64,000 nt of DNA, taken from the NCBI GenBank assembly GCA_016190005.1, contig JACPRK010000146.1, positions 1 to 64,000 of the forward strand, read 5' to 3'. The DNA comes from Candidatus Wallbacteria bacterium (lineage in GTDB: Bacteria; Muiribacteriota; UBA6191; JACPRK01). Of the stretch, positions 2,978 through 56,687 are shown one piece after another. The notes beneath the pieces were generated by a model, which was not told the DNA's origin, did no database searches, and saw nothing but the letters and a program-made list of their open reading frames with translations. Within the stretch, counting starts at the first letter, position 1; every line of letters starts with the position of its first letter. The position numbers and the translations under genes were made by a program.

Positions 2978-3466
2978 GTGAGATCCGAATCGGATTCTGC
3001 GGAGGGCGCTGACCCAGTCCGCATTCTTGCGGAAGCGGCCCGGGCGCTGCGGGAGCATTACCTGCAAGCGCGAGCCGCGGTTGCCGAGGTGGAGCTGGAG
3101 CTGGCGGCCGCGCGCCCAGGAGCGCAGGGAACAGGCGGCGTTTCGCTTGAGCGCGAGGGCGATCTGGCCGAGCTGAGAACGGCCATGCGGGGGCTTCGCG
3201 ACCGCTACGAGGAAATGGAGCGCGAGCAGCAGGAAGCCGCGTCCGCGCTCTCCGCGGCCCGTTTGCGCCTCAAGGTGCAGGAGCTGTTGCGGCGGGCTTC
3301 GCCCGGCCACGAGGCGGAGGCGCTCGACGAGGCCCGGAGGACAATCGCCGAGACTGCTGCGCGCGCCGAGCTCGAGACCGGCGGGCTCGATCCCGAGACG
3401 CGCCTGGAGCTCGAGAAAATCGATCGGCTGGCGCGGGCCCTGAGACTGGCCGGGGTGAAGCCGTGA
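2978..3466 (+). CDS. conserved hypothetical coiled-coil protein, first gene of the giant-membrane-protein operon
   Basis: A 162-residue protein without recognised family. It is rich in Ala, Glu, Arg and Leu and reads as long amphipathic helices or coiled coil between residues about 15 and 155. There is no signal peptide or membrane span. The GTG start at 2978 has a good ribosome site (GGAGG at 2967-2971), and a TATGAT box lies at 2955-2960. The stop overlaps the next GTG by four bases. In composition it resembles the PspA-like protein at 56049, but I see no shared motif. Inferred cytosolic partner of the membrane proteins that follow. Confidence 0.7.
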   Translation: MRSESDSAEGADPVRILAEAARALREHYLQARAAVAEVELELAAARPGAQGTGGVSLEREGDLAELRTAMRGLRDRYEEMEREQQEAASALSAARLRLKVQELLRRASPGHEAEALDEARRTIAETAARAELETGGLDPETRLELEKIDRLARALRLAGVKP

Positions 3467-4281
3467 AGCGGCCAGAAGGCGGTCTGCCCGGACTCCTGGG
3501 AGCGCTCGGTTTCGCGGCGCTGGTCGTGATGGCCGGCGCCGCGCGAGGTGAGGAGGTCGCGGACGCGGTCGCCAGACAGGTGGCCGCGGGGCGAGACTCG
3601 GGCGTGGTCGACGCCGGGTCGCTCCTGTCTGCGGAGGATGTGGCCGCCTTGCAGGCGGTGCGTCGCGAGCTGGCTTCGCGCGGGCTGCGGGCGATGTTCG
3701 TCACCGTGCCGGACGCGGTTGCTCAGGAGCGGCTGCAAGGCCGACTGGGCGAGATGCTCGGCTTGGGGCCGGACGATCTTCTGATCATCGCGAGCCGGAC
3801 CAGTGCCCATTGCAAGGCGCCCGCACTGAGGGGCGACACGGAGCCGCTGGCGAAGGCGTTTCGCGAGTCGAAGGCCGACTTCGCGCTTGGCACGCGCGCC
3901 GGTCTGGTCGCGCTGGCGTCCCGGTCAGCCGAGCTCGTGGCCGGCCGCCGCGCGCGGGAGACGACGCTGGCGCGTGCGGGCGCGGCCGGTCTGGCCGTGC
4001 TGATCCTGGCCGGTGGCGCCCTGCTGGGGCTCAGGGTCGGGTCCGATGCGGCCCGGCGGGCGGCCGCCGAGTCGGCCGGTCGCGAGCCGCTGCTCGACTC
4101 GCTGTCGCACTCGCTCTACGAGCTGGCGGTTCTGACGGAGGAGCAGCCGTGGGGCCACGCTGTCTACCTGGAGGCCTGGCGGCGTTACAGCGAGGTTCGT
4201 CGCTCGGGCGGGGCGGCAGAGCTCGAGGAGCTGGGCCGTTACCTCGGGGACACGCTCACGCGCTCGAGGAGCCGCTTGTGA
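3463..4281 (+). CDS. secreted/membrane-anchored protein with TPM-like N-terminal domain
   Basis: A 272-residue protein. Residues 1-30 are a signal peptide or N-terminal anchor. Residues about 45-160 resemble a TPM (Psb32/MOLO-1) domain: VVDAGSLL, then a long helix, then AMFVTVPDA and DDLLIIAS. A clear transmembrane segment covers about 168-192, followed by a mainly helical cytoplasmic tail of 80 residues. TPM proteins are membrane-anchored and often act in envelope or protein maintenance. The GTG start overlaps the previous stop (GTGA) and the stop overlaps the next GTG in the same way. The TPM call rests on pattern only. Confidence 0.6.
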   Translation: MKRPEGGLPGLLGALGFAALVVMAGAARGEEVADAVARQVAAGRDSGVVDAGSLLSAEDVAALQAVRRELASRGLRAMFVTVPDAVAQERLQGRLGEMLGLGPDDLLIIASRTSAHCKAPALRGDTEPLAKAFRESKADFALGTRAGLVALASRSAELVAGRRARETTLARAGAAGLAVLILAGGALLGLRVGSDAARRAAAESAGREPLLDSLSHSLYELAVLTEEQPWGHAVYLEAWRRYSEVRRSGGAAELEELGRYLGDTLTRSRSRL

Positions 4282-4976
4282 TCGCCGGGAGCCGGCTCGA
4301 GCTCTGGCTTCTGGGAGGCACGCTGACGACGAGAAAGCTCTCGAAGTGGCGCGCGCTGGCGACGCTGGTCGTCACCGGAAGCCCGTCGCAGCCAGCGATC
4401 GAGGAAGCGGGCGGCCTCGAGGGACTTGTCCGGGACGTGACGAAGGTCCTGGCGGGCGCACTGCGAGGGGAGATCTCGAGAACCGACACGGCGGCGGGGG
4501 CGAGTCTCCGTGCGCGTGCCGAGGACGATAGCGATACGGCCGCTGTGACGGCCCAGGCCCACGCGCTCCACGCGCCGCTGGAACCCGCGGTGACGATCGA
4601 TGTGCGGGTCTTCTCGCCTCGAGGGCGACCCTGCGCGGCGGCTCGCGCCAAGGCGCTGGCGATCGCCCTGGAGACCGAGCTGCGTCAGCGGTTGACCGTC
4701 GCCCGGATGGAGTACCGGGAGCTGGAGTTCACGCGCTCGCAGGTCCGCGGCGCCGTCTCGGCGAACGAAGTTGCCGAGGACTCAAGCCCGCTCTTCGGCC
4801 TGGCCGCGCACGCGGTGGCTTCGCTGCGCGCCATGGAGGGGATGAGCGCCGTTCCGGTCGCCGACGATGCGGCCGGCGGGACTTTCGAAGGCGCCGGCCC
4901 CGCGGGCCCGGGCGACGATTCCGGCGGCGGCTCGCTGGACGGCGGCGCCGACGACGGAGCCGGCGGACAGCTCTAG
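4278..4976 (+). CDS. hypothetical protein with Gly/Asp-rich tail
   Basis: A 232-residue protein, start GTG at 4278 overlapping the preceding stop by four bases. The frame is open upstream, but only from here does the protein look folded. No signal peptide. It has a beta-type block near 10-40 (LELWLLGGTL, ALATLVVTG), a central region of charged helices, and a second alpha/beta block (TIDVRVFSP) near 115. The last 35 residues are Gly, Asp and Ala, probably disordered. No family recognised. Position suggests a partner of the giant membrane protein 18 bp downstream. Confidence 0.65.
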   Translation: MIAGSRLELWLLGGTLTTRKLSKWRALATLVVTGSPSQPAIEEAGGLEGLVRDVTKVLAGALRGEISRTDTAAGASLRARAEDDSDTAAVTAQAHALHAPLEPAVTIDVRVFSPRGRPCAAARAKALAIALETELRQRLTVARMEYRELEFTRSQVRGAVSANEVAEDSSPLFGLAAHAVASLRAMEGMSAVPVADDAAGGTFEGAGPAGPGDDSGGGSLDGGADDGAGGQL

Positions 4977-4994: not shown

Positions 4995-7900
4995 ATGCCA
5001 TCTCCCACCGAACGCGCCCCCGAGAGCACCGGGAAGAGCGAGCTGGGATGGATGCGGCTCGTCGCCGCATTTCTCGAAGAGGGCAACATCAAGTGGCTGC
5101 TGGCGGTCGGCATCGCGCTGATCCTGGCGGCGTCGGCCTACTTCGTTCACATCAACTGGAAGTTCTTCGAGTCCTACACGTTCCTGCAGTACGCGCTGGT
5201 GGCCGGTTTCACTGCCGTCTGCTCGGGCTTGGCGTCGGTCCTCACGGAGCGGGCCGGCCTGCCCAGCACCGGTCGGGCGTTCCACCTGACGGCGTTCTTT
5301 CTGGTACCGCTCAACTTCCTGGCGATGGCGCTTCCGGAGATCGCCCTGTTCTCGACCAAGAGCGCATCTCCCGAGGTCGGCTGGGCGCTGGGGTTGGCCG
5401 CCTATCCGTTCTTGTTCTGGGTGCTGGACCGCAGCCTGGTCGCGCTGACGGGGGGCGGTTGTGCGCGGCTGGCCGGCGCCCTCATCGGGGCGGCGGGGCT
5501 CTTGCCGTTCGGCGGCCCTGCGAGTCCGCTTGCCTTTCCGCTGGCGTTGGGGGCGTGGCTGATCTCGGCCTTCGGTCTGGCCGAGGTACGCCACGAGCTG
5601 GTCCTTAGGCGGCGACTGGATGATCCTCAGCCGATCGTGCTCTCGGCTGTCGGCCTGATCGGGGCCTTCGTGGCGCACTGCTGGCTGGCGGCGCCCGAAG
5701 CGCGCTGGGCCGGGCCAGCGGTGTTCGCGGTCGCGCTGCTGGTGTTGCACCTGTCGCACGCGCTGCGAGAGGCGATGGCCTGGCGGATGGGCGATCGCGG
5801 CCGAGATATCGCCAACACGACGGTCGTCGCCGCGCACCTGCTGATGTTCGTGGCGACAGCCGTGGCCTACGGCGGGCGGCTGGTGGCCAATCCGGCGTTT
5901 GCGCTGACGGTGACGCTGCACGCGCTGGTCCTGGCATCGACGGCCGCGGTCCTGGGGAGCGCGCTGGCGCGCCGGCTGGCGCTCGGGGCAGCAGCGATAG
6001 CGGCTGCGGCAGCGGCGGCCGTGACGCCGGAGCTGGCCACGGTGCTCGAGCGCGGCGCGGCGGCCGTCATCGGCAATGGGTGCCGGCCGGCACTGCTTGC
6101 GCTGATGCTGGCGGCGTACGCGTATGCGCTGCTGGCCGGACTGGCGCATGGTCGCGGGGATGAGGAGTGCGAGGAGTGGTCCCGGGACGCGCTCGGCTTC
6201 TCTGCGGCAGCGGGTACGTTTGCGGCGTTCGGGGCGCTCGGCACGGCCAGGGGTGGTGCGCCGATGCTGGCGCTCTGGTCGGCGCTGCTTTGCACGACGT
6301 GGGCGCGGTTCCGGGTCGCCGACTTGTTGCTCGGCTCACTGCTCGCGGCACTGGGCGCGGGCGTGGCGGCGGCGAAGCTGGCCGGAGTGGAGGGGGCCGG
6401 CCTGGTCTTCGGGATGGGCGGCGCGGCGGCGGCGTTTCTGATGCTGGTCCCGAGCCGCGAGGCGGGGATTGCGTGGCCGGTGATGCGAGCGCTGGCGTCG
6501 ACTACGAAGGACCCGTGCGAGGCCGCGGCGATGCTGGCGCTGATCGCGGCGATGCTGGTCGGCCTGGGCGTGGACGCTGCGTCGCCGGCCGCTGCGGTCT
6601 CTCTGGCCTTTCTGGCCGCGGTCGCGGGATGGGGGGCCTCGGCGCGCGGCGCGCGACTGCGGGAGATGACCTTCGTCCTTGCCGGGGTGACGCTCCTGCA
6701 GTGCCGGGGGCTGGCTTCGGGCCGGCTGCTGGTCTGGGGCGAGTGGGCGCCGGGCGTCCTCGTGCCGGCCCTGATCGGCGCAGCGTTCTGGGGGCTGGGC
6801 CGCACGCTCGGCCGCCGTCGCGCGGGCCCGGAGGCGCAGGCGGAGGGTGTTGCAGAGTCGGTGCATCCGTTGGAGTTTTCGGGTGTTGCGATGTCCGCGG
6901 CGGCGGTGCTCTTCGCTCCGTTCCATCTGCCGGCCGGTGTGGCAGCGCTCGCGGTGGCTGCGGTTCATTTCGGCGTTTGCCTGGCGGCCTACAAGCTGAG
7001 GCCGCTGTTGACGCTGTCGGCGGGCAGCGCGGGTGCGGCGATCGTGCTGGCGGCCCACGGCGCCGCCGGCCCGGAGGGTGCGCGTGCAGCGCTGGCAGCC
7101 CTTGCGCTGGCCCTGGCTGCCGCGGCCTTCCATTTGCGCGGGCGTCTTCAGGCAGCGCTGGCTCCGGTCAGCTCGTGGGGCCGGCGGCTCCAGATCAGTC
7201 CTCTGATGGACTTGGCGCTGGCGGCGGCAGCGGTTCTCTGCTGGCTGGACGCTGGCCGCCTGGTGGCGCTGGAAGGTGCCGGGCTGCCGGCTTCGGCGCT
7301 GGCGGCGGCCATTTTCATCGCCGGGGCGATCTTCTATTCCACGGATCTCCTGACCGTCCCGGCGCTGCTGGCATTGGCGCTTGCGGCGGTGGAGTGTCAC
7401 CTTCGAGGGTGGCCGCTGGCGCTCCTGGCCGCGGCCATCGTGCTAGGGCGGTTCGCCGATCTGGCGGGGCAGCGCGAGGCTGCGCCGAGGGCGACGCCGT
7501 ACGTCGTGGCTTCTCATCTCTTCGCAGGCCTGGCGACGCTCTCGGCCCTGGTCGCGCCGGCGCCGCTGGCGTCGGCTGCCACGCTAGCGGCAGTGGCCGC
7601 ATGGCAGTTCTGGCGCTCGCGCGGCGCGCCGTCACATGCGACGGCGGCGCTCGAGCTGGTGCTGCTTGCCCTGGCGCGGGCGCTCGAGGCAACGGGCTGG
7701 GGGCCAGCGTGGCGGCTCCTGGCGCTGGCCGGGGCCAACGCGGCCGCGCACTTCGCGTGGCCGGTCGCGGGCGCTATTCCCCGGCCGGTCCTGGCGGGCG
7801 TGGAGGTCACGCTGGCCAACGTCTTCCTGCTGGTGCCGATCGGGTTGGCATGCGATGCCGGCGGACGGCTGGCGGGGGCGGTCATGCTGCTGGGCGCCCT

Positions 7901-10900
7901 GGTGGGCGGCTCGTGCGCAGCGCGGTTGCCGCGGTCGCAGGTCGCCTGGGTGGCGCTGGCGCTGGCGGTGGTGGGCGCGCCGCTGGTTGCGGGCGATGCG
8001 GCTGTGCGGGCGGGCTCGTCCGTCCTGGCCGTCGAGGCGTTCTTGGCGCTCTGGCTGGCGCGCGCGCTGCGGGCGCGGCAAGGGCATGAAAGTCTCACCG
8101 GACCGGTCGACTGGACTGCGCGGGGGCTGGCTGCGGCCGGCGGATTGCTGGCCCTTGCCGAGGCCTTCCGGCCCGGAATCGCGGACCCGCTGACGGGTGC
8201 GGGTGTGGCTGAGACGCTCAGGCCGGCGTTGACGGCTGCCGCGTGCAGCGCTCTCGCTCGCGTTGCAGGCGGCCCGTTGCAGGGACTGTCCGCGCTCTTC
8301 GGCTGGGGTGCCCTCATGCTGGGGTTGGCGCCCAGGTGCCCGTCTGCGCTGAGCGAGTCGATTGCACTTTCCACTCTTGGTGTGGCGCTGCTCTCGGTAC
8401 CGGCGGAGCGCGGTCAGGCGTGGAGGGTTCTTGGGTGGGCGACGTCGACGGGTCTTACTCTTTACCTGGTCGCGCAGTTCGGCGGCTCGCAGCTCCACGG
8501 ACTGGCGAGCCGCCTGCAACCCTCCGAAGCGGTACTGGCGCTGGCGATCCAGGCTCTTGCGTTCGGCGTGGAGACATGGCTTCGTCCGGGGGCCGCCGCA
8601 TGGCAGGGATTCACGCTCGCCGCTACGGCCGCGACGCTGGCTGCGATACGGGCGACGGGCTTGCCCTGGGCCTGGTGCGCTGCGGGGGCGGCCTGGCTGG
8701 CGCTGGCGATCGCCAGTGCCGGTCGCTGGATGGGGGAGCTGGTCCGGGGCGGCCGGTCGCTGGACCTGTCGCGTTCGGTGGGGCCCGGTTCCGAGGCGTT
8801 GGCGGTCACGCGCGCCGTGTCGCTGGCGATGGGTGTGCTGGCGCTGGCTGGGGTGCCCCAGCTCTCGGGCTTCGAGGCGGCCGGACTGCTGGCGCTGGCA
8901 GCGGCGCACTGGCACTTCCTGGCGCCCGGAGGTCGCGCCGACGTCGCCTTCTTCGGGGCGGCGCTACTCGGAAGCCTCTCCGTGGTCTGGGGAGCGTACG
9001 CCGCGGCGGTCCGGACGGGCGCCACGCTGGAGCAGTTCTTCCTGGAACCTTACTTCGCGCTGACGGCGCTGACGATGGCGCTGGGATGGATGGCCGCAGA
9101 GCGAGTACTGGCGGCGCGGGAGCCCGTGTTCCGAGGCGAGGCAGCCGCGACGCTGGCATCGGCCTTCGGTGGGGCGGCCTTTGCCGGTTCTTTCGTCGCG
9201 CTGCTTTCGGCTGTGGGAACGACGCCGCATCACCTGGCGCGGCTGGCGACGCTGCTGGCCGTGCAGGGCATCGTCTCGCCCAGGGTGCACGCTGGTGCTC
9301 CCGCACTGGCTCGGCTGCTGGGGCTCTTCACGCTCGCGCTCTGGGGCGCGCTCGGGCTGGAGGCGTTCGCGGTCTGGCGGACCGCGCTGGCGCCGGCCGA
9401 GGACGTGCGTGTAGCGACGGCGCTGCAGATGTTGCTGCTCGTGGCCGCGGGCTACCGCGTGGCGTCCGCCTGGCCGGGCCGCAGCGGCTCGGATGTCCAG
9501 AGCGCGGCAGCCCGTGACGCCAGGGCCTTCGGGCATGCGACCGTCCTGGTCCTTACGGTCGGGTGTGCCAGCGCGGCTCATCTGTGGGCCCTGCGGCCGG
9601 AGGTGCCGTGGCAAGCTGTGGGCCTTGCGTTGGGCGAGTGTCTGGCTGGCCTCGTGCTCTTCTCGAGCGACGCGGGCCAGCTGGTCTTCTGGGCGGCGTC
9701 GAGCGCGCTCTTCCTGGAGCCGGCGGCGCGCGCCATCGGTCGGGCACATCTGGCGGTCGATCCGGTCGCCGGGGTTCCGCTGGCGGCGACGGTGCTGGCT
9801 GTCCAGGCAGGACTTTTCTGGGTTGCGGAGCGGGCGCTCGGAGCCGCTGGTTGGGCGTCTTCTGTGCTGGGGACGCGAGCGGCCGGTTGGGCCCGGGCGC
9901 TGGCCGGGTGGGCGGCCGGTCTGGTGTCGCTCGTGGCGTTCCGCGGGGTCTTCGAGCAGCTTGCGGCGGAAGCATCCCGGTTGTCGCCGGCGCTGGTACA
10001 GGGAGGGGCGGGCCCGGGAGCGGTTGCCGGGACTCTATCGCTCGTTTCACTCCTGGGGTGGTTGGCGGCGCTGCACGCCATCGTGACGCTGCTGACCGAA
10101 AGTGCGATCTGGCATCGCTCTGCCGTGGTTCTGGGGTGCTCGGCGGCCTTCGCGGGGGCGTACCAGGGACTGCTCGAGGCGGGTTGGCTCACGCTTTCCT
10201 CGGGGTTACTGGCGGCCGCGGCCGTCTCGCTCGTGCTCTGCGCTGCCGGAACGGGCCTCCGGAGTTTCGGGTTGCCGGAGGACGACTGGAACGGTCTGTC
10301 GAGTGCGTTGAGTGGTTTCGGTCTTGGCTCGGTAGTCCTGGGGGTGACGGTGGCCTTCGGCCGGGACGTGGCGTGGCCGGGGCCGGTGGAGCGGGCGTTG
10401 CGCCTGCACGCCGCGGCGCTCGTGCTGGCGCTGCTCTCGTATCCTGCGCGGTGGGCTCCGGCCGCCTGGCCAGCGGGTCTGATGCACGCAGCCGGGGCGC
10501 TGGCGCTGGCCGGGGTGGTGCCGGGCTGGCAGCTCGGGGGCCCGACGCTGGCGGCGAGTTGCGGGCTTTCCGGCTTCCTTCTGCTCTGGTGTGCGGCGGC
10601 AGTGGACGGGGCGGCGTGGGGCTTCGCCGGGGTCGGCGCCGGTCTGGGTGCTATCGTCGTCGCGGCGTGGACGGCCGCGGCGCCGCAGTCCTGGTTCTGG
10701 CTGGTCTCGTGGCCCCTGCTCTCGGCCCTGCTGCTGGCGCTGGCGGCCGGTCTGCGAGCCGCGAGGCTGCCGGCCCATCTTCAGATGGCGCGGCGGGCGT
10801 ATGGGGAGGGGTTGCAACTGGCTGCTCTCTTCCTGGCAGCGCCCGCCCTTGGGTCAGCCCTCCAGGTCGGTCCGGGGGTCTCCGGCCGGCTCGTGACACT

Positions 10901-13900
10901 TGCGCTCCTGGCCCTCTGGGCGCGGGGGATGAGGCCGAGTGAAGTCCGCGCGGAGGCCGAGCTGTCGGAGGCCTCGTGGGAACCTCGCCGCTCGGGGCAC
11001 CTTCGCGCCTGGTTCGGCCTGGCATCGGCCGCACTCGTGGTCGCCGCGGTCGTCGGGGGGGCTGCCTACTGGAGCGCTGGGAGCGGACCGTGGTCCGCGG
11101 TGCACCTGCCGGCGGCGGGCGCGTCCCTGACTGCCATGGGGCTAGGCTGGGAACTGGCCCGGCGACGGTACCTGGCTGCCCTTGGGGGCGCCAAGTGCGG
11201 CGGCGGCGTCTGGCCCGGTGCGGTTCCAGAGGAGTGGCTCCTGCAGGAGGCTCCGGCGCTCTGCTCGCACGCCGGCCTCGCGCTGGCGCTGGCTTGCTTC
11301 GCCTGGCCGCAGCCCTCTGCGATGTCCGCGCTGATCTTCGCGACGCTCGCGCTCTCGGCGGCGGGCTCTCTGGGGCGCGCCGTCGCGAACGCCGATACGG
11401 GCGCGGCAATGATCGGGTGCGGCACGGCGTACGCGGCAGCTCTCAGGGTGGCCTCTGTAGCTGGCTGGCAATCGCCGGCGGCGGTCTGCCTCCTGCTGGC
11501 CGGCACCTCCATGGGGCTTCTCGGGGCCGGGGCCCGGTGCGGCGGCTTCGGATTGAGGCAAAAGGATTGGAAAACACTTTCGAGTCAGCTGGATGTGCTG
11601 GGGCTGCTTTCGACCGTCGCCGGTGTTCTCGGGCTCTTCTTGCGGGACGTGGCATGGCCGTCGCCCGAGTCCGAAGGCTTTGCGCTCTTGGCGGCGGCGG
11701 TGACGCTGGCTGGGATGGCCGAGGCCGTTCGGCGGTGGGCGACGCCAGGAGGCGAGCGGCCGGATGCCGACGGCGGCCCGCGGGCGGCACTTCTCTGGCC
11801 GGCGCGCCTGTTCCACATCGCTGCGGCCGTCGCACTGGCGGGGGTCTGGCCGGCTGCCAGGTCGGGCGGCTGGTATGCAACGGGGGCGCTGGCTCTTGCC
11901 GCGGTGCTCGGGCTGCTGGCCGGCCTTCGCCAGCAGGCGACGGTCTGGGGACTCTCTGGGTCGGTCTTCGCGCTGGCCGCCCTGCCGCACGCGGCCTGGA
12001 CCGCGGCGCAGCCTCGCTCCGCGGAGCTGCTGCTGGCCTGGCCGGTGCTGGCAGGCGCGGCGTTCGCGCTGGCGTGGTTCCTGGAGCGCAGGCGAGCTCC
12101 GGCTTGGCTGGAGGGCGCACGCGCTTTCCACGTGGCGACGCTGCTACCGGCGGCGGCGTTACTGGGTCTGCCGTCAGTGCTGTCGGCTCTGGTCGTGGGC
12201 TTCGACTCCGCGTTCAAGCTGGCGCTGCTCGGGGCGCTCTTCGCGCTGGCTCGCACGCGGCGCGCCAACGCCACTCTGGGTCTTTCGGCGGCTGCCCTCG
12301 CCGTGGCAGGTGCAACCACACTGGCGGCGCGGCTGGCCGCTGGCGCGGGCGGCTGGTCTCCCGCCCACCTGCCTGCGGCGGCACTGGCGCTCGTTGCTGC
12401 CGGGGTGATTTTCGACCGGTTGTCCGGCCATGCACGAGCCTGCGAGGCGGCACCTGAGCTTCTCGAGCGCGCGGTTCCGCAGGCGGCTGTTTCCGCGGCG
12501 ATGCTCGCGGGGCTGGCGTCGGTCTTGCGGCCGCTAGGGGTGGTCCATGGGCTTGCAGTCATCCTGGCGCTCGGAGCTTGCTCCAGGTTCTGGCTCTTCG
12601 CGGCGTCCGGCCGCGCCGTCCATGGGGCGGCCTACCTGGGGTGCGGCGCCGCGTTCGCGGCCGTGTTCCGGCTGGCCGCCAGCCTGGGATGGCTCTCGCC
12701 CGCACCGTTGCTGCTCCTTGCTGCGGCGACCTCGGCCGCACTCCTGCGCGCCGGCCGCCGCTCGGGCGACTTCGGGCTGTCACAAACCGAGTGGAAAGCT
12801 CTCTCGGATGTTTTGGATCTCATCGGACTCGCGGGACTGACGGCGGGCGTGGCCGCGTCGTCGGCGCGGCACGTGCCCTGGCCTTCGGACCAGAGCCACT
12901 CCTTCGCGTTGCTGGCAGCGGCCCTGGTCCTGCAGGGGGGCGCTCCCTTTCTCGAATCCGTGGCGTCCGGGTGGTCCTCGAAGGTAGCGCACCTGGCGGC
13001 TGGGCTCGGGGTGCTGGGTGTCTTCCCGGCCGCTTCGGAGGGCGGCTGGTCCGCTTCGCTGGCTCTGGCAGCAGGGACTGCCGTGGTCCTCGGCGGTGCG
13101 GCGCGGACCAGCGGCACCGTGTGGGGCTTCGCGGGACTGGGTCTGACGCTTGCCTGCCTCTTCGACCTCACGTGGCAGTTCGCTGCGCCCCGTGCCTGGG
13201 AGCTGCTCTTCTCGTGGCCGCTGGCTGCGGCCGTGAGCCTGACGCTCTCCTGGGCCCTGGCCAGAGCTCGCGTGCCGGAGTACATGCAGCCCGCCTGCCG
13301 ATTCTACGAAGGCGCGCTCCGAGCCCTGGCCTGTCTGGCGGCGCTGCCGGCGCTCACGGCGCTGGGACGGGTCGAGCTCGGCAGCTCTGCCCGGCTTCTG
13401 TCGCTGACGGCGGTGGCGGCGGCGTACCGTGCTCTCACGGCCAGCTCCGACGCCGGCCGCGCAGCGGCGCTGTGTGGGGTGACGGCCGTGGCCGTCGCCG
13501 CCGCCGGGGCAGGCGCGGGCTTTGGCGACTGGTCACTTGCCCACCTGCCTTGCGTGGCGGCCGTCCTCGTGACCGTCGGATTCATCTGGGACCTGCTGCT
13601 CCGCCGCCCGGCAGCAGCCTCGAGGCTCCCCGAAGAGCTGCGCGAGCCCGGCATGTCGACGACCTTCGTCACGGCAGCGCTGATCCTGGCGCTGGTTGCC
13701 TTCGTGCTGCCTGCGACGCCCGTGACGGTCTGCTGCGTCACCGCCGTTCTGGCGGGCACGGGCCTCTTCGCCCTCCGGAGTGCGTACGACTCGGGCAACG
13801 AGCTGGCCGTCTATGTCGGCGAGGCCTGCCTGGCGGGCGTCTACGTTTACCTGCGCACTTCCGGCATCCTCCACGGCTCGCCCTGGGCCGGACTGCTCGG

Positions 13901-14627
13901 CGTCATGCTCGACTTCGGGTTGCTGGCGGTCAGCCAGGCGGCCGCCGGCTGGCGCAGGCCCGTCTTCGCCCGGCCGCTGGCGCGCACCGCGCTGACGCTG
14001 CCGTTCCTGCTGATGGCCGCTTTCCTGCACCGCGGGCCGACGACCGAAAACATCTTGATGGTCCTTGTCTCGGGAGCCTTTTACTCCTCGGCCAGCCTCG
14101 ACCCGCGGCACTACGGGCTGAGGTTCCTGGCCGCCGCGCTCTACAACGTCGGCCTGGGAATGGTCTGGATGAGGCTCGAGTTCGTCTCGTGGCAGGCCTA
14201 TGTCTCGCCTGTCGGAATGACGCTCCTCTGGGCGACGGAGCTGGAGCGCGACGCCTTCAGTCCTCGGATGCGGAATCGACTCCGATTGCTGGCCAGCCTC
14301 CTCGTCCTGGGCGCCCCGGCGCTCGAGTTCGCCAGCCGGCAGAGCGTGGCAAACATGCTGAACCTCGCCGCCATCTGCGTCGCCGCGATCTTCGGCGGCA
14401 TCTGGATGCGGGTCCGCGTCTTCCTCTACTTCGGGGCCGTGCTGCTGGCAGGCGACCTTCTCGGCTTCGCGGTCTCTCGGTCCATCGAGGCCGAGCTCTC
14501 CGCCGTCTGGATGCTGCTCTCGGCGGGCGGCCTGGTGATCACCATTGCCGCCTTCTTCGAGAAGAAGCGCGCCGAGCTGGCCGAGAAGCTCGGCCGCTGG
14601 AAGGTGGCCCTGGAGAGCTGGGACTGA
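4995..14627 (+). CDS. giant polytopic membrane protein (3,210 aa) with tandem repeats
   Basis: An uninterrupted 9.6-kb frame, almost wholly hydrophobic, with dozens of predicted membrane helices. The N-terminus (GNIKWLLAVGIALILAAS) resembles bacterial membrane families such as DUF2157/DUF2339, though these are far shorter. The C-terminal half has internal repeats. A marker FGLxxxxWxxLSxxL, followed about 20 residues on by RDVAWP or RHVPWP, occurs at residues about 1758, 2185 and 2593, with a degenerate fourth at 2974. Each unit also carries a WGF/WGL, then AAPxxWxLL, SWPL block. Spacing is 427, 408 and 381 residues. No catalytic motif was seen. It ends in EKKRAELAEKLGRWK, a charged cytosolic tail. 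Function unknown; an envelope scaffold or transporter-like role is only a guess. No stop or frameshift was found. Confidence 0.85.
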   Translation: MPSPTERAPESTGKSELGWMRLVAAFLEEGNIKWLLAVGIALILAASAYFVHINWKFFESYTFLQYALVAGFTAVCSGLASVLTERAGLPSTGRAFHLTAFFLVPLNFLAMALPEIALFSTKSASPEVGWALGLAAYPFLFWVLDRSLVALTGGGCARLAGALIGAAGLLPFGGPASPLAFPLALGAWLISAFGLAEVRHELVLRRRLDDPQPIVLSAVGLIGAFVAHCWLAAPEARWAGPAVFAVALLVLHLSHALREAMAWRMGDRGRDIANTTVVAAHLLMFVATAVAYGGRLVANPAFALTVTLHALVLASTAAVLGSALARRLALGAAAIAAAAAAAVTPELATVLERGAAAVIGNGCRPALLALMLAAYAYALLAGLAHGRGDEECEEWSRDALGFSAAAGTFAAFGALGTARGGAPMLALWSALLCTTWARFRVADLLLGSLLAALGAGVAAAKLAGVEGAGLVFGMGGAAAAFLMLVPSREAGIAWPVMRALASTTKDPCEAAAMLALIAAMLVGLGVDAASPAAAVSLAFLAAVAGWGASARGARLREMTFVLAGVTLLQCRGLASGRLLVWGEWAPGVLVPALIGAAFWGLGRTLGRRRAGPEAQAEGVAESVHPLEFSGVAMSAAAVLFAPFHLPAGVAALAVAAVHFGVCLAAYKLRPLLTLSAGSAGAAIVLAAHGAAGPEGARAALAALALALAAAAFHLRGRLQAALAPVSSWGRRLQISPLMDLALAAAAVLCWLDAGRLVALEGAGLPASALAAAIFIAGAIFYSTDLLTVPALLALALAAVECHLRGWPLALLAAAIVLGRFADLAGQREAAPRATPYVVASHLFAGLATLSALVAPAPLASAATLAAVAAWQFWRSRGAPSHATAALELVLLALARALEATGWGPAWRLLALAGANAAAHFAWPVAGAIPRPVLAGVEVTLANVFLLVPIGLACDAGGRLAGAVMLLGALVGGSCAARLPRSQVAWVALALAVVGAPLVAGDAAVRAGSSVLAVEAFLALWLARALRARQGHESLTGPVDWTARGLAAAGGLLALAEAFRPGIADPLTGAGVAETLRPALTAAACSALARVAGGPLQGLSALFGWGALMLGLAPRCPSALSESIALSTLGVALLSVPAERGQAWRVLGWATSTGLTLYLVAQFGGSQLHGLASRLQPSEAVLALAIQALAFGVETWLRPGAAAWQGFTLAATAATLAAIRATGLPWAWCAAGAAWLALAIASAGRWMGELVRGGRSLDLSRSVGPGSEALAVTRAVSLAMGVLALAGVPQLSGFEAAGLLALAAAHWHFLAPGGRADVAFFGAALLGSLSVVWGAYAAAVRTGATLEQFFLEPYFALTALTMALGWMAAERVLAAREPVFRGEAAATLASAFGGAAFAGSFVALLSAVGTTPHHLARLATLLAVQGIVSPRVHAGAPALARLLGLFTLALWGALGLEAFAVWRTALAPAEDVRVATALQMLLLVAAGYRVASAWPGRSGSDVQSAAARDARAFGHATVLVLTVGCASAAHLWALRPEVPWQAVGLALGECLAGLVLFSSDAGQLVFWAASSALFLEPAARAIGRAHLAVDPVAGVPLAATVLAVQAGLFWVAERALGAAGWASSVLGTRAAGWARALAGWAAGLVSLVAFRGVFEQLAAEASRLSPALVQGGAGPGAVAGTLSLVSLLGWLAALHAIVTLLTESAIWHRSAVVLGCSAAFAGAYQGLLEAGWLTLSSGLLAAAAVSLVLCAAGTGLRSFGLPEDDWNGLSSALSGFGLGSVVLGVTVAFGRDVAWPGPVERALRLHAAALVLALLSYPARWAPAAWPAGLMHAAGALALAGVVPGWQLGGPTLAASCGLSGFLLLWCAAAVDGAAWGFAGVGAGLGAIVVAAWTAAAPQSWFWLVSWPLLSALLLALAAGLRAARLPAHLQMARRAYGEGLQLAALFLAAPALGSALQVGPGVSGRLVTLALLALWARGMRPSEVRAEAELSEASWEPRRSGHLRAWFGLASAALVVAAVVGGAAYWSAGSGPWSAVHLPAAGASLTAMGLGWELARRRYLAALGGAKCGGGVWPGAVPEEWLLQEAPALCSHAGLALALACFAWPQPSAMSALIFATLALSAAGSLGRAVANADTGAAMIGCGTAYAAALRVASVAGWQSPAAVCLLLAGTSMGLLGAGARCGGFGLRQKDWKTLSSQLDVLGLLSTVAGVLGLFLRDVAWPSPESEGFALLAAAVTLAGMAEAVRRWATPGGERPDADGGPRAALLWPARLFHIAAAVALAGVWPAARSGGWYATGALALAAVLGLLAGLRQQATVWGLSGSVFALAALPHAAWTAAQPRSAELLLAWPVLAGAAFALAWFLERRRAPAWLEGARAFHVATLLPAAALLGLPSVLSALVVGFDSAFKLALLGALFALARTRRANATLGLSAAALAVAGATTLAARLAAGAGGWSPAHLPAAALALVAAGVIFDRLSGHARACEAAPELLERAVPQAAVSAAMLAGLASVLRPLGVVHGLAVILALGACSRFWLFAASGRAVHGAAYLGCGAAFAAVFRLAASLGWLSPAPLLLLAAATSAALLRAGRRSGDFGLSQTEWKALSDVLDLIGLAGLTAGVAASSARHVPWPSDQSHSFALLAAALVLQGGAPFLESVASGWSSKVAHLAAGLGVLGVFPAASEGGWSASLALAAGTAVVLGGAARTSGTVWGFAGLGLTLACLFDLTWQFAAPRAWELLFSWPLAAAVSLTLSWALARARVPEYMQPACRFYEGALRALACLAALPALTALGRVELGSSARLLSLTAVAAAYRALTASSDAGRAAALCGVTAVAVAAAGAGAGFGDWSLAHLPCVAAVLVTVGFIWDLLLRRPAAASRLPEELREPGMSTTFVTAALILALVAFVLPATPVTVCCVTAVLAGTGLFALRSAYDSGNELAVYVGEACLAGVYVYLRTSGILHGSPWAGLLGVMLDFGLLAVSQAAAGWRRPVFARPLARTALTLPFLLMAAFLHRGPTTENILMVLVSGAFYSSASLDPRHYGLRFLAAALYNVGLGMVWMRLEFVSWQAYVSPVGMTLLWATELERDAFSPRMRNRLRLLASLLVLGAPALEFASRQSVANMLNLAAICVAAIFGGIWMRVRVFLYFGAVLLAGDLLGFAVSRSIEAELSAVWMLLSAGGLVITIAAFFEKKRAELAEKLGRWKVALESWD

Positions 14628-14770: not shown

Positions 14771-16729
14771 CTAGCGCGCCACGCGGAAGCCGACGAACTC
14801 GGCGGTCTCGTTGGCCAGGTAGCCGTAGCGGTAGGTGGAGCGCAGGAACCACGGCTTGCTGTAGTAGGCGCCGCCGCGAAGGGGCCGGCGCGCCGAGGGC
14901 AGCGATCGGACGGGGTTGCCGGCGGGCGACTGCTCGTAGTAGCGGAGGTCGTAGGTGTCCTGGCACCACTGCCAGACGTTGCCGGCCATGTCGAGCAGCC
15001 CGAACGGGGAGCTGCCGTCCGCCATGGGAAGCCGCGCCCGCGGGCCGAAGCTCCCGACCGGCGACGTGTACTTGAAGCCGTCGAGAAGCCCCGGCTCCTG
15101 GGAGTAGTTCGCGCGCGCGGCTCCGCCGGCGTCCGGAGGCTCGTCGCCCCAGGGGTACTTGCGCCCGTCCGACCCGCGGGCGGCGTACTCCCATTCGGCC
15201 TCGCTTGGCAGTCTCAAGCCGGCCCACTCGCAGAACTGCTGGGCCTCGTGCCAGGTCACGTTCGACACGGGGTGATCGCCGCCTGGGTTCCAGGCAGGCA
15301 CGGGGGGCGCCTTGCGACCCCGCTCCTTGCAGTAACGCGCGTACTGGTCCCGGGTCACCGGCACCTTTCCCAGGAAGTAGCCGTCGACTCGGATGCGCCG
15401 GACTGGCTTCTCGTCATCCTCGCCGGTGTCGGAGCCGCGCCAGAACTCGCCCTCGGGGACCTGCACCAGCTCGATGCCGCTCTTGAGGTGCACATACTCC
15501 GCGCAGCCCTTCGTGTTGGAGCCGATCGGCGCCAGCCCGGCCAGCGTCTCGTGAATGCCCGCGGGCCGCCTCGTGTCCGGCTCTCGCAGAGTCCAGGCCA
15601 GCATCACGATCGTCCCCAGCCCCGCAAGTGCCAGCGCCGAGCCGACCAGGAAGCCTCTCGACAACGGCAGTCCGGCGCCCCGCTTCAGCACCGGCTTGGG
15701 ACCGGTGGCATCGTCATCCAGAAGGCGCGCCGTCAGCCGCGCCGTGGGCGACGCCTGGGCCGCCGCGGGCGATCTACCCGAGCGGGGTCGAACCCCCGAA
15801 GCCGGACGGATGCGAACCTGCGACCGAACCGACTCTCGGCGCTCGCAAGTGTCGAGAGAGGCCAGCACCGTCTGGGCGTCCGCAGGCCGCTCTTCCGGTC
15901 GCTTGGCCAGGCATCGCCCGACCAGATCGTCGAGCTCGGCCGAGACGCCCGGCATGCGGTCCGACACCACCGGCGGCGCCTGAGACATATGGGCTGCGAC
16001 CACGTCCGAGATCGACCGCCGCGTTCCGTCCTTCTGTTCCGCGGGGAATGGCGGCTGCCCGGTCAGCATCTCCATCAGCACGCACCCCAGCGCGTACAGG
16101 TCGCTGCGAATCGATGGCGCGCTGCCCTCCACGAGCTCGGGCGCAAGGTACTCGGGCGTGCCCAGGAAGGCTCCCTCCGTCGTGACACGATCGGCGCCCG
16201 ACACCGTGCGGGCCAGGCCGAAGTCGCAGATCTTGATCGCACCCTCGTCGGTGATCAGGATGTTGGCGCTCTTCAGGTCCCGGTGGAGGATGTCTTGCGC
16301 ATGCGCCGAGGCCAGTCCGGAGGCGATCTGCACGGCGAAGCCGAGCGCCTCGAGCGGCTCTAGCGCGCCCACGGCCGCGATGCGCTCCGCCAGCGTCTGG
16401 CCCTCGGCGACCTCGATGACCAGGAACGGGTGGCCGCCCTCGTCGCCGATGTCGTAGACCTGGATCAGGTTGGGGTGCCTCAGTTGCGCCAGGACCCGAC
16501 CCTCGCGCGCGAACCGGGCCAGGCTCTCCGGGTCCTGGGCGTGCGAGAACTTGATCGCCACCTGCCGGTCCAGGCTCTTGTCGGTCGCGAGATAGACTAC
16601 CCCCATCCCGCCGGAACCCAGTGTAGACTGGATCTCGAAGCGCTCCTGGAACGCACGGGAGAACCGCCGGGGCGGCCCGGCCACGACCGGCCCCCCGGCC
16701 CGCGTCACTCGTGATTCGCCCTCGCCCAA
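14771..16729 (-). CDS. Ser/Thr protein kinase fused to an extracellular FGE/sulfatase-modifying-factor-like domain
   Basis: A 652-residue membrane kinase. The Hanks kinase domain spans about 32-290: glycine loop GSGGMG, lysine in VAIKF, catalytic HRDLKSAN, DFGLA, and GTPEYLAPE. After a proline/arginine-rich linker, one membrane helix lies near 350-372 (LVGSALALAGLGTIVMLAW). Residues about 405-652 form an FGE-sulfatase domain (LVQVPEGEFWRG, VTWHEAQQFCEWAGLRLP, AEWEYAARG, GNVWQWC, GFRVAR). The copper-binding cysteine pair of true formylglycine-generating enzymes is absent near the C-terminus (YRYGYLANE there), so it is likely a binding or sensor domain. Convergent with the giant membrane protein gene. 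Confidence 0.9.
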   Translation of the reverse strand: MGEGESRVTRAGGPVVAGPPRRFSRAFQERFEIQSTLGSGGMGVVYLATDKSLDRQVAIKFSHAQDPESLARFAREGRVLAQLRHPNLIQVYDIGDEGGHPFLVIEVAEGQTLAERIAAVGALEPLEALGFAVQIASGLASAHAQDILHRDLKSANILITDEGAIKICDFGLARTVSGADRVTTEGAFLGTPEYLAPELVEGSAPSIRSDLYALGCVLMEMLTGQPPFPAEQKDGTRRSISDVVAAHMSQAPPVVSDRMPGVSAELDDLVGRCLAKRPEERPADAQTVLASLDTCERRESVRSQVRIRPASGVRPRSGRSPAAAQASPTARLTARLLDDDATGPKPVLKRGAGLPLSRGFLVGSALALAGLGTIVMLAWTLREPDTRRPAGIHETLAGLAPIGSNTKGCAEYVHLKSGIELVQVPEGEFWRGSDTGEDDEKPVRRIRVDGYFLGKVPVTRDQYARYCKERGRKAPPVPAWNPGGDHPVSNVTWHEAQQFCEWAGLRLPSEAEWEYAARGSDGRKYPWGDEPPDAGGAARANYSQEPGLLDGFKYTSPVGSFGPRARLPMADGSSPFGLLDMAGNVWQWCQDTYDLRYYEQSPAGNPVRSLPSARRPLRGGAYYSKPWFLRSTYRYGYLANETAEFVGFRVAR

Positions 16730-56048: not shown

Positions 56049-56687
56049 ATGAAACCGCTGAAGCGACTGTGGGCCAAGCTTACCGGGAAGCCCGATCCGG
56101 ACGATCCGCGGCAGATCTTCGAGGCGACCCTGGCGGACTTCCGGGAGAAGTACCGCAAGAGCCGCGACCTGGTCGCCGGGGTGCTGAGACAGCGGGACCA
56201 GGTCCGGGCAGCGCTCGACCAGAAGCGGGCCGAGCTCGAGGGCGTGCAGACCCAGGCGCGTCAGGCCGTCCAGTCCGGAGACGATGCAACGGCGCTCAGG
56301 TTCCTGGAGCGCGAGCCGATGCTGGAGCGGACCGTTGCCGACCTGGGCCGGCGCTACGAGATGCTGGAGCGCGAGGCCGCCCGCGCCCGCGAGGTCCTCC
56401 TGGAGCTGGACGCCGAAGTCGACCGGCTGGAGCGCGATAGGGACCGGGCGGCCTACCTCGACCAGACGGCCGATGCCCACGCCAGCCTGCGCTCGATGGT
56501 CCGCGACCTGGAATCCGGCACTGCATCGCCGGCGGTCGACCGGGCCCGCTCGTCGCTAGAGCATTCCGCTCTCACGCAGTCCATCGCCCACGACTTGGAC
56601 GAGGCCGACCGGCGCGATTCTTCGTCGACCGCGCCCACGTCAGCGCAGGAGAGGCTCAAGGCGCTGAAGGGGAGGCTCGAGAAGTGA
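56049..56687 (+). CDS. PspA/IM30-like coiled-coil protein
   Basis: 212 residues, almost all alpha-helical with heptad pattern. An amphipathic basic N-terminus (MKPLKRLWAKLTG) is followed by long coiled coils to about 165 and a flexible tail. The plan resembles PspA/Vipp1 membrane-repair proteins, but sequence identity is not obvious. TACTAT at 56021-56026 is a possible -10 box. It lies just after spoVR and before the next heptad-repeat element. Confidence 0.6.
   Translation: MKPLKRLWAKLTGKPDPDDPRQIFEATLADFREKYRKSRDLVAGVLRQRDQVRAALDQKRAELEGVQTQARQAVQSGDDATALRFLEREPMLERTVADLGRRYEMLEREAARAREVLLELDAEVDRLERDRDRAAYLDQTADAHASLRSMVRDLESGTASPAVDRARSSLEHSALTQSIAHDLDEADRRDSSSTAPTSAQERLKALKGRLEK

Follow-up and report, generated by a model that had tools for sequence, protein, structure and literature searches.

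The open reading frame at positions 4995–14627 (+ strand) of the window, i.e., the entire 64,000-nucleotide stretch of Candidatus Wallbacteria DNA that was analyzed, encodes one real protein of 3,210 amino acids under purifying selection. Judging by sequence comparison, this giant polytopic membrane protein belongs, as an unusually large member, to a widespread uncharacterized family and is not a new kind of protein: its architecture is already known but unnamed, and its middle has been enlarged through in-frame duplication.

The frame runs from ATG to stop without a break, as the first-pass annotation had stated, and its product contains 55, 83, or 95 hydrophobic TM-like segments at hydropathy thresholds 1.6, 1.3, and 1.1, respectively, these counts being obtained with a hydropathy scale applied to a protein with 24% Ala; there are 66 KD segments of at least 1.5. 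The DNA is 73% GC and features many spurious long ORFs in other frames, and hence the length of an open frame alone is weak proof and coding tests are needed. The GC content of the codon positions (0.75/0.59/0.84) conforms to a coding pattern and is constant along the entire gene. An orthologue of 3147 amino acids is present in a MAG of the same genus of Candidatus Wallbacteria (L008:10001–19444, genome G001, JACQZN010000001.1); the two proteins are 93.7% identical across aligned residues, all indels are in frame, and dN/dS, calculated by the Nei–Gojobori method for this pair, is 0.25 overall and 0.16–0.35 per segment. Given the orthologue with its intact frame, the in-frame indels, and the dN/dS value, we see neither a frameshifted set of several genes, a possibility raised at first reading, nor a GC-rich chance ORF. 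Residues 706–765 (7110–7289), a stretch of about 60 Ala-rich hydrophobic residues (180 bp), are missing in frame from the orthologue. The dS between the two genes varies approximately tenfold along the gene, from 0.026 in the C-terminal block to 0.25 in the first repeat copy, which suggests recombination between lineages.

The tandem array of units of about 410 residues extends over residues 1652–2963 (9948–13883, + strand), as seen from self-alignments of 1652–1983 with 2472–2818 and of 2312–2571 with 2704–2963. In windowed self-BLAST, off-diagonals appear at 408, 427, 392, and 820–835 residues, the best of them having 134 bits and E 7e-38, well above the controls, which reach no more than 24 bits for the reversed protein and 26 bits for shuffles. 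The unit HMM identifies exactly three copies, all on the + strand: residues 1722–2142 (10158–11420, 540 bits), 2143–2550 (11421–12644, 568 bits), and 2551–2945 (12645–13829, 591 bits). The three tandem repeats described from the letters alone, and the self-alignment proposed as a check on them, are borne out by these data. The motif FGLxxxxWxxLS is found in three places only, at residues 1758, 2185, and 2593 (0.0007 expected), followed by DVAWP/HVPWP at residues 1791, 2218, and 2626, and by the WGF/L...WPL/V block at residues 1875, 2318, and 2710, all as the first-pass annotation had placed them; a further motif, WSxxHLP, is found at residues 2033, 2454, and 2846. Each unit of about 410 residues contains approximately 12 hydrophobic segments.

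The copies are 34–39% identical to each other in pairwise comparison, and 85–92% identical to the orthologous copies of G001; thus, according to the sequence identities, the duplications are old, having taken place before the two species separated, without ongoing homogenization. At the DNA level, identity between the copies is only about 49–51%, and such divergence argues against an assembly artefact. The dN/dS ratio against the orthologue is 0.22–0.35 per copy.

A weaker fourth copy had been proposed at the protein end. This candidate is rejected, as the unit HMM scores −4 bits over the final ~250 residues, and a junction model yields only 8 bits (i-E 0.005) at residues 2887–2963, that is, at the tail of copy 3 entering the C-terminal block. 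The array overruns the third copy by about 20 residues (from 2945 to approximately 2963) into this block, which is of other ancestry. Cryptic copies were found in residues 1–1721 neither by BLAST, nor by the unit HMM, nor by hhalign; hhalign self-comparison detected no sub-repeats inside the unit, the profile of six sequences being weak, and the AlphaFold model of the unit was uninformative (pLDDT 51). Upstream of the array, residues 126–1651 (5370–9947, + strand) form an unrepeated, Ala/Leu-rich, TM-rich, and poorly conserved middle, showing no self-similarity above the reversed control and no match to the unit HMM; dN/dS over residues 1–1650 is 0.16–0.26. Hence, construction by duplication of whole membrane modules, initially ascribed to the giant as a whole, applies to the array at residues ~1652–2963 (41% of the protein) and not to the remaining 59%, where no repeat is detectable.

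The two ends of the protein link it to its relatives. The N-terminal conserved block (residues 14–125; 5034–5369, + strand) is a DUF2157-like TM bundle with matches in relatives from several lineages; the first ~110 residues of the giant align with the equivalent N-terminal part of P0004, a protein of other Wallbacteria, and of others, and the family motif in this block is E-x-x-I-x-W-L-x-x-L-G-x-x-L-V ... W ... P-L-N-F. The block matches positions 35–111 of the DUF2157 profile (PF09925, a TM domain model of 146 positions) with 17.8 bits (up to 18.7) and E 0.0027, below the gathering score of 32.4 bits. DUF2157 is seen at E≤1 in seven out of 12 family N-terminal blocks (best 4.1e-6), with weak matches in 14 out of 14 control genomes as well. 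By these profile scores, the block is DUF2157-like and not a DUF2157 member by threshold; the early hint at DUF2157 was a good one at the level of likeness, the giant itself staying under the cut-off, with a single sub-threshold copy followed by about 3,000 more residues.

The C-terminal conserved block (residues 2885–3210; 13647–14624, + strand; alignments A1 and A4) ends with F-E-K-K-R...S-W-D. The last ~330 residues of the giant match proteins of other Wallbacteria (P0008, 2e-33; P0004, 1e-15; P0005, 3e-6; P0007, 8e-5), and residues 2950–3210 match residues 1216–1475 of a paralogue from the same genome (29% identity, E 5e-25). SCO7613_CTERM (NF047321) is found in seven out of 13 family C-terminal blocks, the best match having 2.6e-14, and in the paralogue, with 5e-7 in the genome search. 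There is no match for the giant (P0001) or for its C-terminal block, against a cut-off of 45 bits for the C-terminal ~190 residues, and two relatives score 27.4 and 30.7 bits, both below this cut-off; the hmmscan filters missed the match of the paralogue, and thus absence of a match in proteins of biased composition is weak evidence. Judging by the homologous proteins that do match, the block is SCO7613_CTERM-like and not a member by threshold. The similarity comprises a C-terminal TM block with an acidic/basic cluster and a terminal helix in large polytopic membrane proteins; the giant differs in being linked to SCO7613_CTERM only via the paralogue and relatives (22–32% identity), and in its 410-residue tandem array, missing from every relative examined. 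The AF2 model of the block is all-helical, with 13 helices (pLDDT 74.5, pTM 0.57), and Foldseek search with this model against PDB and BFVD gave no match at E≤0.001.

In its own genome, the A1 profile of the C-terminal block retrieves two genes, those of the giant and of the paralogue. With the broader A4 profile, matches appear in 15 out of 382 genomes, including six from outside the phylum, at loci with open frames of 1,243–2,513 residues. Relatives sharing both ends with the giant are 1,197–2,513 amino acids long. One relative, with CcmK-like genes at its locus (L066:786–1531), probably comes from a cyanobacterium, judging by these genes. In most relatives, the N- and C-terminal blocks align with the two ends of the giant in the same order, and this co-occurrence accounts for the whole protein and rules out random fusion. 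No 410-residue unit was found in the relatives, the paralogue among them, by the unit HMM above reversed controls. The third copy of the giant extends into the C-terminal block, as the alignment of the giant with P0004 begins at residue 2829, inside copy 3.

The paralogue (L027:7483–11910, contig G000:C103; 1,475 residues) has a tandem duplication of its own, with the period of 216: residues 858–977 and 1074–1194 are 35.5% identical (E 3e-13), and the second copy runs into the start of the C-terminal block. Its orthologue in G001 (1,472 amino acids) has the repeat; in G002, a frame of 1,403 amino acids, no repeat was detected. Among eight further relatives searched for repeats, only G361 showed a borderline case (period 167, E 2e-4; control 0.009), and tblastn of plasmids with the C-terminal block of the paralogue gave no match. 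As the two paralogues underwent independent in-frame duplications at equivalent positions, these sequences suggest a site just N-terminal to the C-terminal block that is tolerant to duplication.

Large proteins made of tandem whole-membrane modules are exemplified by PIEZO and the Nav/Cav channels, with modules of 4 or 6 TM segments. The giant resembles them in this respect, with no sequence relation implied; they are eukaryotic or unrelated, and its modules have about 12 TM segments. The statement of the first-pass annotation that it knew no characterized example was too strong regarding size, given Arc3A (PMC8926400), but the open-access literature yielded no characterized protein in which a ~12-helix module is repeated three times in a row.

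Arc3A, a DUF2339 (PF10101) protein, has about 35 predicted TM segments, no enzymatic residues, and a TM number that varies across phyla; in its absence, lysophospholipids accumulate under phospholipase attack (PMC8926400), an effect confirmed for lipase effectors (PMC12663445). The giant shares with it the giant polytopic build, variable TM number, broad bacterial spread, and absence of obvious catalytic residues (PMC8926400); it differs in having about 2–3 times as many TM segments and no recognizable Arc3 partner gene nearby. The comparison with DUF2339 suggested at first reading came out negative: the giant has no match at E≤10, and none was found in its genome at this threshold or in the scan of N-terminal blocks. 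Therefore, the link to Arc3A is one of build only.

Our preferred explanation, to which we assign an overall probability of about 0.4, is as follows. Proteins of the family begin with a DUF2157-like TM block and finish with a SCO7613_CTERM-like one; in between lies a TM-rich middle that evolves fast and varies in length, and the giant is predicted to sit in the inner membrane. In this genus, the middle grew when a segment of ~410 residues and ~12 helices, adjoining the C-terminal block, was twice duplicated in tandem and in frame; the number of TM segments per unit, if even, would mean that inserted copies preserve the topology. The three copies then diverged to their present identity, all being kept by selection. 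The sequences show these structural and evolutionary steps, and this outline and duplication history are very probably correct. For the mechanism, we infer that the conserved ends may anchor and organize the protein, the long helix array may provide an elongated surface inside the membrane for acting on the lipid bilayer itself, and more modules may make this surface longer, leaving the basic activity unchanged.

A role in envelope-lipid homeostasis or protection of envelope integrity, put ahead of its rivals, is offered tentatively and by analogy, since the closest characterized protein of the same build, Arc3A, prevents lysophospholipid accumulation. The neighbours are not conserved among the relatives, and thus there is no genomic support for a role in lipid metabolism; searches with the giant or the unit in Pfam, NCBIfam, and PDB sequences gave no match, and the giant showed no enzyme motif, no conserved neighbour, and no similarity of fold to PDB or viral structures. 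For SCO7613 itself, the only reported link is to a changed polyhydroxyalkanoate content of S. coelicolor (PMC8313934).

The rival that survives best, though we regard it as somewhat unlikely, is near-neutral expansion, in which the family works via its two ends, any middle is tolerated, and the copy number has no function. The unconserved middle, the great variation in length among relatives of 1,197–3,210 residues, the different duplication made by the paralogue at the corresponding place, and the 60 residues of the giant missing in G001 all conform to it. However, the dN/dS of each copy and the retained motifs point to individual constraint, which membrane compatibility alone could impose.

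It is less probable, and again argued by analogy, that the protein is a mechanosensory or structural scaffold, its TM array forming a rigid curved membrane rod, similar to a PIEZO blade, that senses or sets tension, and its DUF2157-like head relaying the signal to PspA or other envelope-stress proteins. Such a rod would fit tandem modules whose TM count seems to be even. LiaF, a protein of the Lia/PSP system of envelope stress, has DUF2157 as its TM part (PMC11237479), which also counts in favour of the envelope role put first. Three small genes on the same strand overlap or nearly abut the giant gene upstream and are kept in G001: 2978–3466 (162 amino acids, coiled-coil-like, the first of a putative operon), 3463–4281 (272 amino acids, with an N-terminal hydrophobic segment and a second TM-like segment, no family, and 4-bp overlaps with its neighbours), and 4278–4976 (232 amino acids, no family, separated from the giant gene by 18 bp, a possible operon partner). 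The first of them is weakly PspA-like, but with 23.7 bits against PF04012 (PspA/IM30) it is below the cut-off of 33.9 (21.3 bits in the genome search), and this match may reflect any coiled coil. No PspA/IM30 gene above the cut-off, nor any other neighbour above threshold as a PSP component, was found next to the giant; bona fide PspA genes lie elsewhere, one with 41 bits in the same window (56049–56687) and more on other contigs, and a search of the genome for the TPM domain (PF04536) came back empty at E≤10. An operon reading via PspA/TPM is thus rejected, and since none of the upstream genes could be named, they do not decide the function; comparison of the relatives' loci revealed no conserved neighbourhood of the giant outside the genus. 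Downstream, in convergent orientation, lies a gene (14771–16729) encoding a serine/threonine protein kinase domain fused to an FGE-sulfatase (formylglycine-generating-enzyme-like) domain.

Still less likely is a transporter or flippase that has several modules and moves envelope lipids or polysaccharides; each ~12-TM unit would then have a transporter-like fold of its own, present three times in the manner of a pseudo-oligomer. About 12 TM segments per unit are typical of secondary transporters, and FGLxxxxWxxLS, DVAWP, and WSxxHLP are kept in all three copies, but the helices contain very few charged or polar residues, there are no transporter neighbours, and the empty Pfam, NCBIfam, and PDB sequence searches count against this reading as well. 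An artefact (a GC-rich chance ORF, several genes fused, or an assembly duplication), for which the abundance of spurious ORFs and the incompleteness of both MAGs, the source genome and G001, might speak, is refuted by the coding pattern, dN/dS, in-frame indels, DNA divergence of the repeats, and presence of the paired family blocks at opposite ends of one frame, and its probability is negligible.

A bolder and improbable reading is that the family, found in several bacterial phyla, grows by repeated in-frame duplication of whole multi-helix modules at one place, directly N-terminal to the C-terminal block, from 1,200 to more than 3,200 residues, so that the number of modules would adjust a long device inside the membrane that handles lipids or senses tension. 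If this reading is true, a giant with three ~12-helix modules and perhaps 80–95 TM segments would be among the largest of such proteins.

An apparent orphan giant is now tied to a widespread uncharacterized family with a DUF2157-like head, a variable TM middle, and a SCO7613-type tail. Giants can enlarge by duplicating complete membrane modules at a preferred position, and this seems to have happened twice independently in this genome, yielding three copies of 410 residues in one case and two copies with the 216-residue period in the other. Thanks to its repeats, a protein with few other features becomes tractable: FGLxxxxWxxLS, DVAWP/HVPWP, and WSxxHLP, kept in all three copies, mark what each module needs, and the copy number can be changed in experiments. 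Should the family act as Arc3A does, a poorly understood class of proteins that protect the membrane would become wider.
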